53,126 nucleotides of DNA, taken from positions 1 through 53,126 of the forward strand of contig JAAYDA010000021.1 of the NCBI GenBank assembly GCA_012729505.1. Reading direction: 5' to 3'. This document shows positions 12,961 to 19,400 of the stretch, in pieces. Position 1 is the stretch's first letter; each line of letters opens with the position of its first letter. The notes below the pieces were generated by a model that was given only the letters and a program-made list of their open reading frames with translations, searched no databases and was not told where the DNA came from. A program made the position numbers and the translations under genes. This DNA is from Syntrophomonadaceae bacterium (GTDB lineage Bacteria; Bacillota; Syntrophomonadia; Syntrophomonadales; DTU052).

Positions 12961-12989
12961 TTGACAAAGCCATCTGCTGATGCTATTTT
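12961..12989 (+). promoter_or_regulatory. sigma-A promoter of the hrcA-dnaK operon
   Basis: A perfect -35 TTGACA (12961-12966), a 17-base spacer, and -10 TATTTT (12984-12989) put the transcript start just before the CIRCE element, where bound HrcA would block the polymerase. Confidence 0.8.
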
Positions 12990-13031: not shown

Positions 13032-13044
13032 CAGGGTGATTTTA

Positions 13045-14070
13045 ATGAATATAGATGATAGAAAAAGAATTATATTAGAGGCTGTTATCAAAGATTATGT
13101 AAAAACAGCCGAGCCGGTAGGGTCCAGAGCTATCGCCAAAAAGTACAACTTAGGAGTTAGCCCGGCTACCGTTCGCAATGAAATGGCAGACCTGGAGGAA
13201 ATGGGATTTCTGGAACAGCCTCATACCTCATCGGGCCGCATTCCATCGGAAAGCGGTTTTCGATATTACGTTGATTATATGATGGTTAAAGACCAGTTAA
13301 CCAGACAGGAAGAGAGCTTTCTGGAACAAATTCTTACCCAGAAGATTGAAGATATCTCTGCTGTCATCCAAAGGACGGCGGACATTTTAGCCAAGTTCAC
13401 CAATTATGCTTCCATAATGGTTGCGCCTCCGGCTACCACTGATAATTTACGCCATATTCAGCTGGTTCCCATTGGGCATAGCCAGGCATTGGTCATAATG
13501 GTAAGTGATGTTGGTGGTGTGGTTCATAAACGCATCGATCTTCCTGAATCCATAAGACCGGAAGATTTAGAGCAATTATCCCAGCTTTTCAATTCCAATT
13601 TACATGGCAATCCCAAAGATATTAGTCGTACCATGTTAAGCAGTCTGCGGACGGAGCTCCTTTATCGCCGCCAGGTGATTGAGCGGGCTTTAGAGGCAAT
13701 TGAAATGGCTATGGGAGGCGGTTATCAGCAAAAGGTCTTTATAAGTGGTGCCCTTAACATTGTAAATCAACCGGAGTTTAAGGATTTTGATAAATTAAGA
13801 AATCTTCTCTTGGTATTGGAAGAACATGACCTTATTCGTAATCTGCTGAGTGAAAGCAGCTTGAAGGAGGTCAGGATTAAAATAGGCAATGAAAATGAAG
13901 CGGAAGAGATTAAAGAGTTAAGCTTGGTTTTCTCTTCTTATGAAGTAGAAGGCCGGGAAAAGGGCAGAATAGGATTGATTGGCCCGGTGCGCATGGAATA
14001 TTGGAAAGCTTCCGCCTCGGTAGAAAAGGTTCGGGATATAGTCCAGGATGTAATAAAGAAGATAAATTGA
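13045..14070 (+). CDS. hrcA: heat-inducible transcription repressor HrcA
   Basis: HrcA binds CIRCE and represses chaperone operons. Its activity usually depends on chaperonin (GroEL) availability. The N-terminal winged helix includes DYVKTAEPVGSRAI and VSPATVRNEMADLE. A GAF-like central domain and the C-terminal GLIGPVRMEYWKA motif follow. I chose ATG 13045, preceded by agggtgat; GTG 13036 is an in-frame alternative. It is the first gene of the operon, directly after its own operator. The next gene is an archaeal-type chaperonin, so which chaperonin modulates this HrcA is an open question. Confidence 0.95.
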   Translation: MNIDDRKRIILEAVIKDYVKTAEPVGSRAIAKKYNLGVSPATVRNEMADLEEMGFLEQPHTSSGRIPSESGFRYYVDYMMVKDQLTRQEESFLEQILTQKIEDISAVIQRTADILAKFTNYASIMVAPPATTDNLRHIQLVPIGHSQALVIMVSDVGGVVHKRIDLPESIRPEDLEQLSQLFNSNLHGNPKDISRTMLSSLRTELLYRRQVIERALEAIEMAMGGGYQQKVFISGALNIVNQPEFKDFDKLRNLLLVLEEHDLIRNLLSESSLKEVRIKIGNENEAEEIKELSLVFSSYEVEGREKGRIGLIGPVRMEYWKASASVEKVRDIVQDVIKKIN

Positions 14071-14082
14071 TGAGGAGATTTC

Positions 14083-15615
14083 ATGGCTGATAAGGTCAAC
14101 CTGGGTCAGGAAATAGACGACCGGTTTAAAACTCTGGTAAACAACACCACCGCTGCCCGGGTGGTGTCACAGGCGGTTGAGGGTACCATTGGACCTAAAG
14201 GACTGGATACCATGATGGTCGACAGCTTCGGTGATGTGGTAATTACTAATGATGGGATTACTATCCTTCGGTTGATGGAGATTAATCACCCGGCGGCCCA
14301 TATGATAATCAATGCTGCCCGCTCCCAGCAGGATGAAGTAGGAGATGGCACAACTACAGCTACCATTATGGCTTCGGCTATGATTTCTGAAGGGCTGAAC
14401 CAGGTCTTGAAAGGTGTGCCGGTGGCCAAAGTCCTGGAGGGAATAGCCCAAGCCACTGCCTATGGGGCAGAGGAGATCCGAAGATGTTCACGTCCGGTGG
14501 AAGGCTGGGATGATCAGGTTCTGTTTCAGGTGGCTAAGGTGGCTGGACGAGGGAATCTTGAATTGGCAGAGCTGGTGGTGAAGGCAGGCGCGATTATAGG
14601 TATTGATCAACTGCAGGAACCCGGATATAAATTTGCCGAGGCGGTTATGGCAGTTGAAGGGGGGAACAGTGAGGTAGTACTGGGAGTTATAGTCAACCAG
14701 AAGCCGGTGAATCGTGAAATGCCCAATCGAGTTGATTTTGCTAAAATTCTGGTGATTGATGATGCCCTCAAACCGGAAGATTTAGAAGAGGGTGCTCTGC
14801 GGACCGAACTGGGCTTCAGAAAGTATTTGGAACTGAAAGATATCTATCATCACAATCTCCTGAAGATAAAGGAGATGAGAATAGGCTTGGTGCTGGCAGA
14901 TCGCAGTGTGGATGATATGGCGGAGGAGATTCTGACTGATGCCGGCATTATGGTGGTACAGCGAGTGAGTCGCCGGGAACTGGAACGGGTTTGTGAACAT
15001 ACCGGGGCTCGTATGATAAAAAGGAACGCCTTAAACCGGACCCCGGAGCAATTAGAAAAATATCTGGGTCAGGCTGAGCTGGTGCAGTATCAGGAGGATC
15101 TGGAAAACATAAGAATTATAGGGGGGCAGGGCCAAGGCACTGCCACTATCTTAGTGGGCGCAGCCACCTCTGAAGTAGTTGAGGAGCGGGAGCGCATGGC
15201 CAGGGATGCGGCGGCTGCCGTTCAGGCGGCTTTGAAGGGTGGAGTGGTACCGGGAGGAGGCGCCCTCGAAGTGTGGGTGGCATCATCTTTGGCTAAGCTG
15301 GCTCATGAAGTCCAGGGAATGACTTCTTACGGAATTCAATGTGTCAAGGAGGCCTTGGAAAAGCCTTTTTCATGTATCATAAATAATGCCGGCTTGAATT
15401 CCCTGGAGAAATTGGTGGAGTTAGCTGCGGTGCAGCAGGCTGCCGGAGATTGTAGATGGGCAGTGAATTGTGATGACGGCCAGGTAATAGACCTGGAACA
15501 AATGGGAGTCTGGGACCCTGCTCTGGTGAAGACGAAGGCTTTAGAGGCGGCCAGTGAGGTGGCTATGGCCATATTGAAAATAAATACGGTTATTAAGAAG
15601 CGGGAGACTGGGTAA
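14083..15615 (+). CDS. group III (archaeal-like, bacterial) chaperonin
   Basis: This is a 60-kDa ring chaperonin of the thermosome/TCP-1 type, not GroEL. Signatures: GTIGPKGLDTMMVDSFGD (35-51), ITNDGITIL (54-62), DEVGDGTTTATI (84-95) and VVPGGGALE (about 388-396). These match archaeal thermosomes (GPKGMDKMLVD, DEVGDGTT) far better than GroEL. Length 510 is slightly short, and the tail (VIKKRETG) lacks a Gly/Met repeat. It is in frame, with tgaggag before ATG 14083, between hrcA and grpE. Established knowledge: archaeal-like chaperonins in dnaK operons are described from a few Firmicutes, notably Carboxydothermus hydrogenoformans (group III). Here it should be under HrcA/CIRCE control and fold substrates passed on by DnaK. 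Confidence 0.92.
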   Translation: MADKVNLGQEIDDRFKTLVNNTTAARVVSQAVEGTIGPKGLDTMMVDSFGDVVITNDGITILRLMEINHPAAHMIINAARSQQDEVGDGTTTATIMASAMISEGLNQVLKGVPVAKVLEGIAQATAYGAEEIRRCSRPVEGWDDQVLFQVAKVAGRGNLELAELVVKAGAIIGIDQLQEPGYKFAEAVMAVEGGNSEVVLGVIVNQKPVNREMPNRVDFAKILVIDDALKPEDLEEGALRTELGFRKYLELKDIYHHNLLKIKEMRIGLVLADRSVDDMAEEILTDAGIMVVQRVSRRELERVCEHTGARMIKRNALNRTPEQLEKYLGQAELVQYQEDLENIRIIGGQGQGTATILVGAATSEVVEERERMARDAAAAVQAALKGGVVPGGGALEVWVASSLAKLAHEVQGMTSYGIQCVKEALEKPFSCIINNAGLNSLEKLVELAAVQQAAGDCRWAVNCDDGQVIDLEQMGVWDPALVKTKALEAASEVAMAILKINTVIKKRETG

Positions 15616-15700
15616 GCACACGCCGCTTATAGAGGTGGGGGTCTTAGGGCGGGTTAGTCATCGGATAGACTAAGGATTGATTTTAGGTGAGGTGACAGCT

Positions 15701-16261
15701 TTGACTGGTGAATGGGATCTCAAGGACGCTGTAGGGGGCGAAGCGACCTCCTTTAGTGAGCCTGAGACAACTGAAGAAAAGGATGAAATTACCATGCTTA
15801 AAGAACAATTGCAGGAACAAACTGCCAAGGCTGAAGAGAATTACGACCGCTATATGAGGGCCTTAGCAGATGGAGAGAATCAGCGTAAACGCTGGCAAAA
15901 GGAGAAAGATGAGCTCCTGCGTTTTGGCAATATGTCCTTGCTCCGCAAAATGCTTCCCTTGGCGGATGATTTTGCTCGGGCGCGGCAAGCCATTGATCAG
16001 GGGGGAGATATGGCTTCATTCCAAAAGGGGGTCGAAATGATTGAAAAGAGGTTGATGGATTTATTTGAACAGGAAGGGGTCCAAATGATTCCGGCCCTGA
16101 ATCAGGAGTTCGATCCTAATTTCCACGAGGCTTTCAGTGTCGATGAAAGTGGCGGCAAGCCTGACGGAACCATCGTACAGGAAATGCAGACCGGCTATAT
16201 TTGTAATGATCGGGTGCTGCGGCCCAGTCTGGTGGTAGTGGCTCAATCAGGGGCCAAATAA
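15701..16261 (+). CDS. grpE: nucleotide exchange factor GrpE
   Basis: GrpE releases ADP from DnaK as a dimer with a long coiled coil. An acidic N-terminus leads into heptads from about residue 25 (TMLKEQLQEQTAKAEENYDR), then the beta-domain signature NPNFHEA-like DPNFHEAFS and GYICNDRVLRPSLVVV near the end. The start is TTG 15701, preceded by aggtgaggtga; the frame runs further to TTG 15677 without a good site. At 186 residues it has normal length. A small hairpin ttagtc/gactaa (15655-15674) lies in the gap after the chaperonin gene. Confidence 0.94.
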   Translation: MTGEWDLKDAVGGEATSFSEPETTEEKDEITMLKEQLQEQTAKAEENYDRYMRALADGENQRKRWQKEKDELLRFGNMSLLRKMLPLADDFARARQAIDQGGDMASFQKGVEMIEKRLMDLFEQEGVQMIPALNQEFDPNFHEAFSVDESGGKPDGTIVQEMQTGYICNDRVLRPSLVVVAQSGAK

Positions 16262-16326
16262 GCCCTTATTAAAATTCTTAATAGTATAGAAACATATTTA
16301 GAAAGATGAAGTTGGAGGTGCATGTA

Positions 16327-18138
16327 ATGGGCAAAGTGGTGGGCATTGATCTGGGAACTACAAACTCCTGTATCGCATTTATGGATGGTAATGATGCCAC
16401 GATTATCCCCAATTCCGAGGGGGAAAGAATAACTCCATCGGTGGTGGCTTTTTCCAAGACAGGAGAAAGACTTACCGGCCGGGTAGCCAAAAGGCAGGCG
16501 GTTACTAATCCTGATCGCACAATTAGTTCAATTAAGCGGCATATGGGAACCGATTTTACGGTAAAGATAGATGACAAAAAGTATTCTCCTCCCGAGATAT
16601 CAGCTATGATTCTGCAAAAACTGAAAGCAGATGCAGAGGCTTATTTAGGAGAGCCGGTTACTCAGGCGGTCATTACTGTCCCTGCTTATTTTACTGATTC
16701 ACAAAGGCAGGCTACTAAAGATGCCGGAAGAATAGCCGGGCTGGAAGTACTGCGGATCATAAACGAACCTACGGCAGCCAGCCTGGGCTATGGTCTGGAT
16801 CGGGAAGGAAGTCAGACCATTTTAGTATTTGACCTGGGCGGCGGAACCTTTGACGTGTCGATCCTGGAGATCGGCGGAGGAGTATTCGAGGTTAAAGCTA
16901 CCAGCGGAAACAACCGTTTGGGTGGCGACGATTTTGATGAGCGCATCATAAATTATCTGGTGACGGAGTTCAAAAAGTCAAATGGGGTTGATCTTACTGC
17001 TGACAAGATGGCCAAACAGCGTCTGAAGGAAGCAGCTGAAAAAGCTAAGCATGAATTATCAACATTAACCTCTACTGACATAAACATACCTTTTGTTACG
17101 GCCACCTCGGAAGGTCCTCTGCATTTGGATCAGCAGCTGACCCGGGCCAAGTTTGATGAGCTGACGGCTGACCTGGTTGAAAAAACAATGGGACCTTTGC
17201 GTCAGGCTCTTAAGGATTCGGGCTTGACCGCTGCCCAGATTGACCGGGTGATTCTGGTGGGCGGATCTACTCGTATGCCTTCGGTACAAACCGCCATCAA
17301 GAATTTCCTGGGCAAAGAACCGTACAAAGGCATTAATCCTGATGAAGTAGTAGCTGCCGGGGCGGCCATCCAGGGAGCGGTATTGGCCGGTGAGGTGAAA
17401 GATGTGGTGCTCCTGGATGTGACTCCTTTGACTCTGGGGATCGAGACTTTGGGAGGCGTATTCACTAAAATGATTGACCGGAACACGACTATCCCAACTT
17501 CGAAGAGTCAGATATATACTACGGCTGCTGATGGCCAGACTTCGGTTGAAATTCATGTTTTACAGGGTGAGCGGACTATGGCTAAGCAAAACGTGACATT
17601 GGGGCGCTTTCACCTGGAAGGTATTCCGGCCGCACCCCGGGGAGTGCCCCAGGTTGAGGTTACCTTTGACATAGATGTTAACGGAATAGTGAACGTTTCC
17701 GCCAAGGATTTGGCTACCAATAAAGAGCAGAAGATTACCATTACCTCTTCCTCGGGTCTGACCAGTGAAGAAATCGAGAAGATGGTCCGGGATGCCGAGA
17801 AGTTTGCCGACGAGGACCGGGTGGCCCGGGAAACGGCTGAAGCTCGCAATGAGGGCGACAGTATGGTTTATCAGGCGGAAAAAGCTATCAAGGATTTTGA
17901 AGAGAAGATAGACTCTGATCTGATCGGCAAGCTCAAGGATGCCAAGGAAGAGTTGGCGAAGGCATTGGCGGGTGAGGATACAGAGCTTATTAAGAGCAAG
18001 ACCGAAGCAGTTACTGCCGCCCTTTACGAGGTGACTGCCAAAGCATATGAACAGAATCCTCCCGGGGATGACTCCGGAGGTTCTGCAGATGGGGTTTATG
18101 ATGCGGATTTTGATGTGACGGATGAAGGAGATAAATAA
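16327..18138 (+). CDS. dnaK: molecular chaperone DnaK (Hsp70)
   Basis: Hsp70 ATPase with N-terminal [12 protein letters not shown] (about 5-16), the [13 protein letters not shown] adenosine site (about 140), [11 protein letters not shown], the [14 protein letters not shown] linker/substrate-domain start (about 360) and a C-terminal helical lid. It has 603 residues. ATG 16327 is preceded by ttggaggtg; an upstream in-frame ATG at 16306 is less likely. Like other Gram-positive DnaKs it lacks a segment of the Gram-negative ATPase domain, judging by length. A terminator-like hairpin follows it, separating it from dnaJ. Confidence 0.97.
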
Positions 18139-18281: not shown

Positions 18282-19400
18282 GTGGCAAAACCGGACTATT
18301 ATGAGACCCTGGGAGTATCCAACAGCGCTTCCGAGGACGAGATCAAAAAGGCTTATCGCAGCTTGGCACTGAAATATCATCCTGATGTGGCTGAGGACAA
18401 AGAAGCAGCCGCAATAAAAATGAAGGAGATTAATGAGGCTTATGCGGTATTAAGTGATGCGCAAAAACGCCAGCAATATGACCAATTTGGACATGCGGCC
18501 TTTGATCCCAGCCAAGGAATGGGAGCGAACGGATTTGACTTTGACATCGGCGGCGTCGGCGATATCTTTGATATGTTCTTTGGCGGCGGCGGCGGCCGTC
18601 GGCGGCGTACCGGCCCCCAACGAGGTTCTGACCGGGAAATCCAGATCCTGATTGATTTCGAGGATGCGGCTTTTGGCACGCAGAAAGAGGTGCAATATCC
18701 GCGCATGGAGGATTGTGATGTTTGCGAGGGCAGTGGAGCGGAGCCCGGGACTTCTCCGAAAACATGTCCTGCCTGTGATGGCAAGGGTCAGGTGCGCAGT
18801 GTGCAGAGTACTCCCCTGGGGAGATTTGAAACAGTCCGGCCCTGCACTCGTTGTGCCGGTAAAGGTAAAATTGTTGAAAAGCCATGTAAAACCTGTAATG
18901 GACAGGGCAAGGTGCGGCGCAGCCGTCACCTGAAATTACGCATTCCGGCTGGTGTTGACAGCGGTGCCAAGCTTCGTATGCAGAGTGAAGGGGAGCCGGG
19001 AATTAACGGAGGCCCTCCGGGTGATCTCTATGTTTACATTGAAGTGAAACCCCATAAAATCTTTGAACGGCGCGGATCTGACATATATTGCGAAGTTCCC
19101 ATATCATTTGTGCAAGCCGCGTTGGGGGATGAAATAGATGTGCCGGTTTTGGATGGCAGCGGCAGTATAAAAGTGCCGGAAGGGACTCAGACCGGGTCCA
19201 GCTTTACCCTGAAAGGAAAAGGCATCCCTCACGTGCGAGGGCATAGGCGCGGAGACCAGATCGTATTTGTAAAAGTTACAGTTCCTAACAAGCTATCTGA
19301 GAAACAAAAGGATCTTTTGAAAAAGTTCAACGAAGAGGAAGAGAAGAAAAAGGATCGTAAAGGGATATTCGACAAGGTAAAGGATGCTTTTTCGGGATAA
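18282..19400 (+). CDS. dnaJ: co-chaperone DnaJ (Hsp40, type I)
   Basis: DnaJ stimulates DnaK ATPase and delivers substrates. The J-domain occupies residues 4-70 with HPD at 33-35. A Gly/Phe-rich stretch (about 78-112) precedes four CxxCxGxG zinc repeats (about 146-215: [32 protein letters not shown]). Two C-terminal substrate domains complete 372 residues. The start is GTG 18282 after gaaaggtgg. It lies 143 bp after dnaK with a terminator-like hairpin between, so its level may be set separately. Confidence 0.97.

Follow-up and report, generated by a model that had tools for sequence, protein, structure and literature searches.

The window analysed here, a 53,126-nt stretch of a Syntrophomonadaceae genome, carries hrcA, a chaperonin gene (CPN), grpE, dnaK and dnaJ in this order (Table 1). 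The neighbours of the chaperonin gene were assigned with Pfam and NCBIfam models, which bear out the position given in an earlier note on this DNA, between hrcA and grpE and first after hrcA. The chaperonin ORF encodes 510 amino acids, starts with ATG 12 nt behind the hrcA stop, and is preceded by GAGGAG (14072-14077), a likely ribosome-binding site; no groES gene is adjacent to it. The hrcA gene is present in a single copy in the genome, and its translation more likely begins with the ATG at 13045, which follows AGGGTG, than with the listed GTG. For grpE, a TTG located a few codons inward, behind AGGTGAGGTG, may mark the true start, and for dnaK, the second in-frame ATG, slightly downstream, is a plausible start.

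The perfect CIRCE that the earlier note had placed in front of these genes is there, without mismatches, and is the sole match within the window (chance expectation, 0.01). The promoter claimed in the same note fared less uniformly: a TTGACA-17-TATTTT site, with a TG preceding the -10 element, does lie upstream of CIRCE, but promoter-like sites in the scan overall were no more numerous than in shuffled sequences. Because the site is located 15 nt before CIRCE and the scan as a whole does not exceed chance, its support is mainly positional.

Table 1. Features of the chaperonin locus in the window
Feature	Position	Strand	Evidence
Sigma-70-like promoter, TTGACA-17-TATTTT	12961..12989	+	consensus scan, 10/12 matches
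CIRCE operator, putative HrcA site, perfect inverted repeat TTAGCACTC-N9-GAGTGCTAA	13005..13031	+	0 mismatches
hrcA, heat-inducible repressor	13036..14070	+	TIGR00331, 321 bits (cut-off 197); PF01628, 201 bits
Group III (archaeal-like) chaperonin gene	14083..15615	+	PF00118, best natural PDB match 5x9u, tree clade, catalytic residues
grpE	15677..16261	+	PF01025, 164 bits
dnaK	16306..18138	+	TIGR02350, 908 bits (cut-off 823)
dnaJ	18282..19400	+	TIGR02349, 464 bits (cut-off 377)

The chaperonin gene was confirmed to be an intact Group III gene that encodes neither a GroEL nor a thermosome. In the Pfam search, the protein matched PF00118 with 370 bits, almost from end to end of the profile. Among the NCBIfam models, those of thermosomes (300-306 bits) scored above those of GroEL (174 bits or less), with the protein staying below the own cut-off of every model, which for the thermosomes is 400-671 bits. 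The top natural match in the PDB was the Group III chaperonin of Carboxydothermus (5x9u/5x9v, 7.8e-137), preceded only by 9rwq, an ancestral reconstruction. In a phylogenetic tree of 41 sequences, the 37 Group III rows (the window protein, 35 relatives and the Carboxydothermus protein, Ch-CPN) share one side of a branch with an SH-aLRT support of 95, the remainder being just two thermosomes and two GroELs; the tree was built by a quick method and has long inter-group branches, so that it does not resolve the order of Groups I, II and III. D57, R156 and D375 of the window protein align with the catalytic residues D56, R155 and D373 of Ch-CPN (PMC5635000), and this Asp/Arg/Asp triad is invariant in the alignment of all 36 Group III sequences including that from the window.

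Thus, the profile scores, the PDB match and the phylogeny that the earlier note had proposed, in which the protein groups with Ch-CPN apart from GroEL and thermosomes, all uphold its reading of the gene as thermosome-like, group III rather than GroEL. Both motifs quoted there, GPKGLDTMMVD and DEVGDGTTTAT, are present, and the gene is intact as stated, with an ORF that is uninterrupted in the assembled sequence.

A search of the same genome, an assembly of 80 contigs (G000), for groEL and groES, also suggested in the note, identified an intact pair coding for GroES (95 aa) and GroEL (540 aa) behind a perfect CIRCE of its own (locus L002). The third perfect CIRCE of the genome precedes htpG, which encodes Hsp90 (G000:C17:37012-37038; L004 1501-1527). 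A perfect CIRCE is found directly before htpG also in the relatives G426, G033, G036 and G056 (L118, L122, L123 and L133); in this phylum, htpG seems to be a standard member of the HrcA regulon. Another perfect CIRCE was seen beside a ClpB-like gene in G293 (L126 1501-1527). The genome of the window further encodes a second full-length DnaK (L140, G000:C4), accompanied by a DnaJ-like gene and a small MerR/CbpM-like gene and without a CIRCE.

Near full-length Group III genes were detected in 118 of the 399 sampled species of the phylum (~30%; genomes at least 95% complete), a hand count of search rows, with the caveat that the gene of G005 is frameshifted and that of G001 is a remnant. By this count, and by the 195 already counted in 2017 (PMC5635000), the statement in the earlier note that such chaperonins in dnaK operons are known from few bacteria is outdated. 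In all 58 loci inspected in which the Group III gene is intact or almost so, hrcA directly precedes it, and a perfect CIRCE precedes hrcA in 57 of these, the exception (L028) coming from a 76% complete draft. This layout agrees with the published statement that Group III genes are located in the dnaK operon, with one exception (PMC5635000). A review (PMC5904260), citing Techtmann and Robb 2010, describes both the type I and the type III chaperonin genes of Firmicutes as HrcA-regulated. The operon layout with a Group III gene is already published and is not rare. At least ten Group III-bearing relatives also have a CIRCE ~400-430 nt before their groEL match (G026, G028, G058, G013, G019, G007, G024, G018, G017, G021 and G039).

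Among the 118 holders of a Group III gene, a separate GroEL match was lacking in just two, G293 and G426. G293 was rejected as a genome with Group III and without GroEL: its groES-groEL genes, behind a CIRCE, run off the contig end. Neither groEL nor groES was found in G426 and G056, two drafts (94-96% complete) with a Group III gene; the absence is most simply explained by missing contigs and, if real, would call for another HrcA modulator. No chaperonin at all was found in G193 and G305 (97-99% complete members of the phylum), and G416 matched solely through a C-terminal fragment located at the end of a contig; all three are fragmented drafts that probably miss contigs. In G288, a single case, the Group III gene stands with CIRCE-hrcA and a dnaJ (L088, L138), and grpE-dnaK are located elsewhere, adjoining a MerR-type regulator that resembles HspR; here, the Group III gene goes with hrcA rather than with dnaK.

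Within the class to which the window belongs, 25 genomes without an intact Group III gene were searched with HrcA. An hrcA gene was detected in 24 of them, and CIRCE-hrcA-grpE, usually also dnaK, are kept wherever the contig reaches. Clear eroded remnants of the Group III gene lie between intact hrcA and grpE in three of the four genomes of the sister genus: a frameshifted 5' portion of about 190 codons and a 3' stub in G001, a middle piece recognised via its similarity to the G001 remnant in G002, and both gene ends in G004. The deletions differ among the three, and therefore erosion continued after the species split. The fourth genome, G003, was not counted as a proven remnant, given that the gap between its hrcA and grpE holds Ns, and two apparent mismatches in its CIRCE were rejected as mutations, being N letters as well. 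Elsewhere, the reading frame of the gene shifts near residue 344 in G005, a genome on a single contig, which could be a sequencing error, and the gene of G061 is broken near residues 105-111. The operon of G010 (L047) reads hrcA-grpE-dnaJ, without dnaK in between; a partial dnaK is found on another contig of this fragmented draft.

When the intact and lost states were mapped on the HrcA tree, parsimony yielded 13 changes of state, of which at least 7 are forced by well-supported branches. We infer that these changes are losses rather than gains, given that remnants are present, that the site is constant and that the gene is intact in the outgroups. By eye, the HrcA branches of the losing lineages are not visibly longer in this tree than those of their keeping sisters. 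Most members of the class and 30% of the sampled species of the phylum retain the gene, which is therefore useful to most holders. A limited literature search found no description of the recurrent decay of a Group III gene in a retained regulon.

The earlier note had raised the question whether an archaeal-type ring can serve as the HrcA thermometer. In such a circuit, the folding of HrcA would need the Group III ring, which unfolded clients would titrate on heat shock; the location of the Group III gene directly 3' of hrcA in every intact locus examined would fit, as would its remaining beside hrcA in G288 although grpE-dnaK have moved. However, groES-groEL are intact under their own CIRCE in the same genome, CIRCE and hrcA outlast the repeated loss of the Group III gene, with grpE and dnaK kept in the gene-losing relatives, and HrcA shows no visible lengthening of the branches of the losers, so that the idea is not supported and this mode of regulation is very unlikely. 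Somewhat less improbable, if still unlikely, would be a circuit that reads the combined load on GroE and the Group III chaperonin, with both rings acting on HrcA. The presence in one genome of two chaperonin genes, each behind a CIRCE, and the known status of HrcA as a client of GroE in other bacteria (PMC8533110) are compatible with this scheme; the apparent persistence of the circuit after the loss of one of the rings argues against it. The likelihood is a shade lower again for a mixed arrangement, in which GroE and the Group III ring would together set HrcA activity in this lineage, and the ring alone would do so in the rare relatives without GroEL, for which G426 and G056 would be the candidates.

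A different kind of explanation, the recent acquisition of an archaeal thermosome gene by the operon, would account for the thermosome-like sequence, and one published view traces Group III to an ancient archaeal transfer (PMC12696368). Yet the window protein branches inside the Group III clade, close to members of its order, and is 59% identical to the nearest relative in the order, the thermosome matches being far weaker; the operon site is the same as in the relatives. As a recent event, the transfer is refuted by the tree and the synteny, and its probability is practically negligible.

We therefore favour, with a probability of roughly 0.86, the reading that the window encodes an accessory heat-shock chaperonin that is controlled by HrcA and independent of GroES. 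In this reading, GroE is the likely modulator of HrcA, and the Group III ring would be one of the outputs of the circuit rather than the sensor. The hallmark of Group III is a double eight-fold ring with ATPase and folding activity. For this organism, we infer from homology co-transcription, heat induction and ring formation along the following lines. A single HrcA-repressed promoter would drive hrcA, the Group III gene, grpE, dnaK and dnaJ, with HrcA on the CIRCE holding expression low. On heat shock, HrcA would release the operator, and HrcA, the Group III ring, GrpE, DnaK and DnaJ would be made together; GroESL and HtpG would likewise be produced, each under the control of its respective CIRCE. 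The Group III ring would be an ATP-driven double-ring chamber with a built-in lid, which would bind unfolded clients with the lid and fold them without GroES. GroE would still tune HrcA activity as in other bacteria; it is the likely modulator here, since GroESL is present and the circuit survives in relatives that have lost the Group III gene. In Campylobacter, GroE stimulates and binds HrcA, and the same has been reported for Bacillus and Chlamydia (PMC8533110). That DnaK hands clients to the Group III ring is a speculation already present in the literature (PMC5635000, PMC5220055).

Taken alone, the gene adds one more member to a known family, at a site already known for it. The relatives amount to a natural experiment: across one small class, breakage or removal of the Group III gene has recurred, and CIRCE, hrcA, grpE and dnaK have stayed, as has groESL in the gene-losing relatives where the assembly permits a check. 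Repeated loss with the regulon kept speaks for an accessory role of the Group III ring and for an HrcA switch that is independent of this ring. Close pairs of genomes with intact and lost genes would allow a comparison of clients or heat tolerance.

The closest characterised counterpart is Ch-CPN of Carboxydothermus hydrogenoformans (5x9u, 5x9v; PMC5635000), with which the window chaperonin shares the clade, the catalytic residues and the operon type; among the 504 aligned residues, 226 are identical (~45% along the whole protein). Among the Group III traits listed for this protein are the absence of the nucleotide-sensing loop and an Arg (Arg155 in Ch-CPN) in place of the Group II Lys (PMC5635000). 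In our alignment, both proteins have the same gaps relative to the thermosome, namely, a short nucleotide-sensing-loop region and a 3-residue deletion in the lid, both described for Ch-CPN (PMC5635000). Of the lid residues termed strictly conserved in that work, Leu237, Phe243, Tyr246 and Phe253, the first three are kept in the window chaperonin (L239, F245 and Y248), whereas the position of Phe253 is occupied by Tyr255; since Tyr is found there in 19 of the 36 Group III sequences, this position is not strictly conserved among them.

Compared with the archaeal thermosome (Group II; 1q3r, 6xhi), the window chaperonin has the same type of built-in lid, and thermosome models are its top NCBIfam matches, but it belongs to another clade and lacks the extra residues of the thermosome in the nucleotide-sensing region and the lid. 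With the Group I system, GroEL/GroES of the same genome, it shares the PF00118 family and an upstream CIRCE; GroEL, in contrast, requires GroES, falls in a distinct clade and is 32-37% identical in two separate pieces. Finally, the locus has the genes, the order and the operator of the Bacillota-type hrcA-grpE-dnaK-dnaJ operon under CIRCE, and differs from it by the extra gene between hrcA and grpE, an arrangement already published (PMC5635000, PMC5904260).
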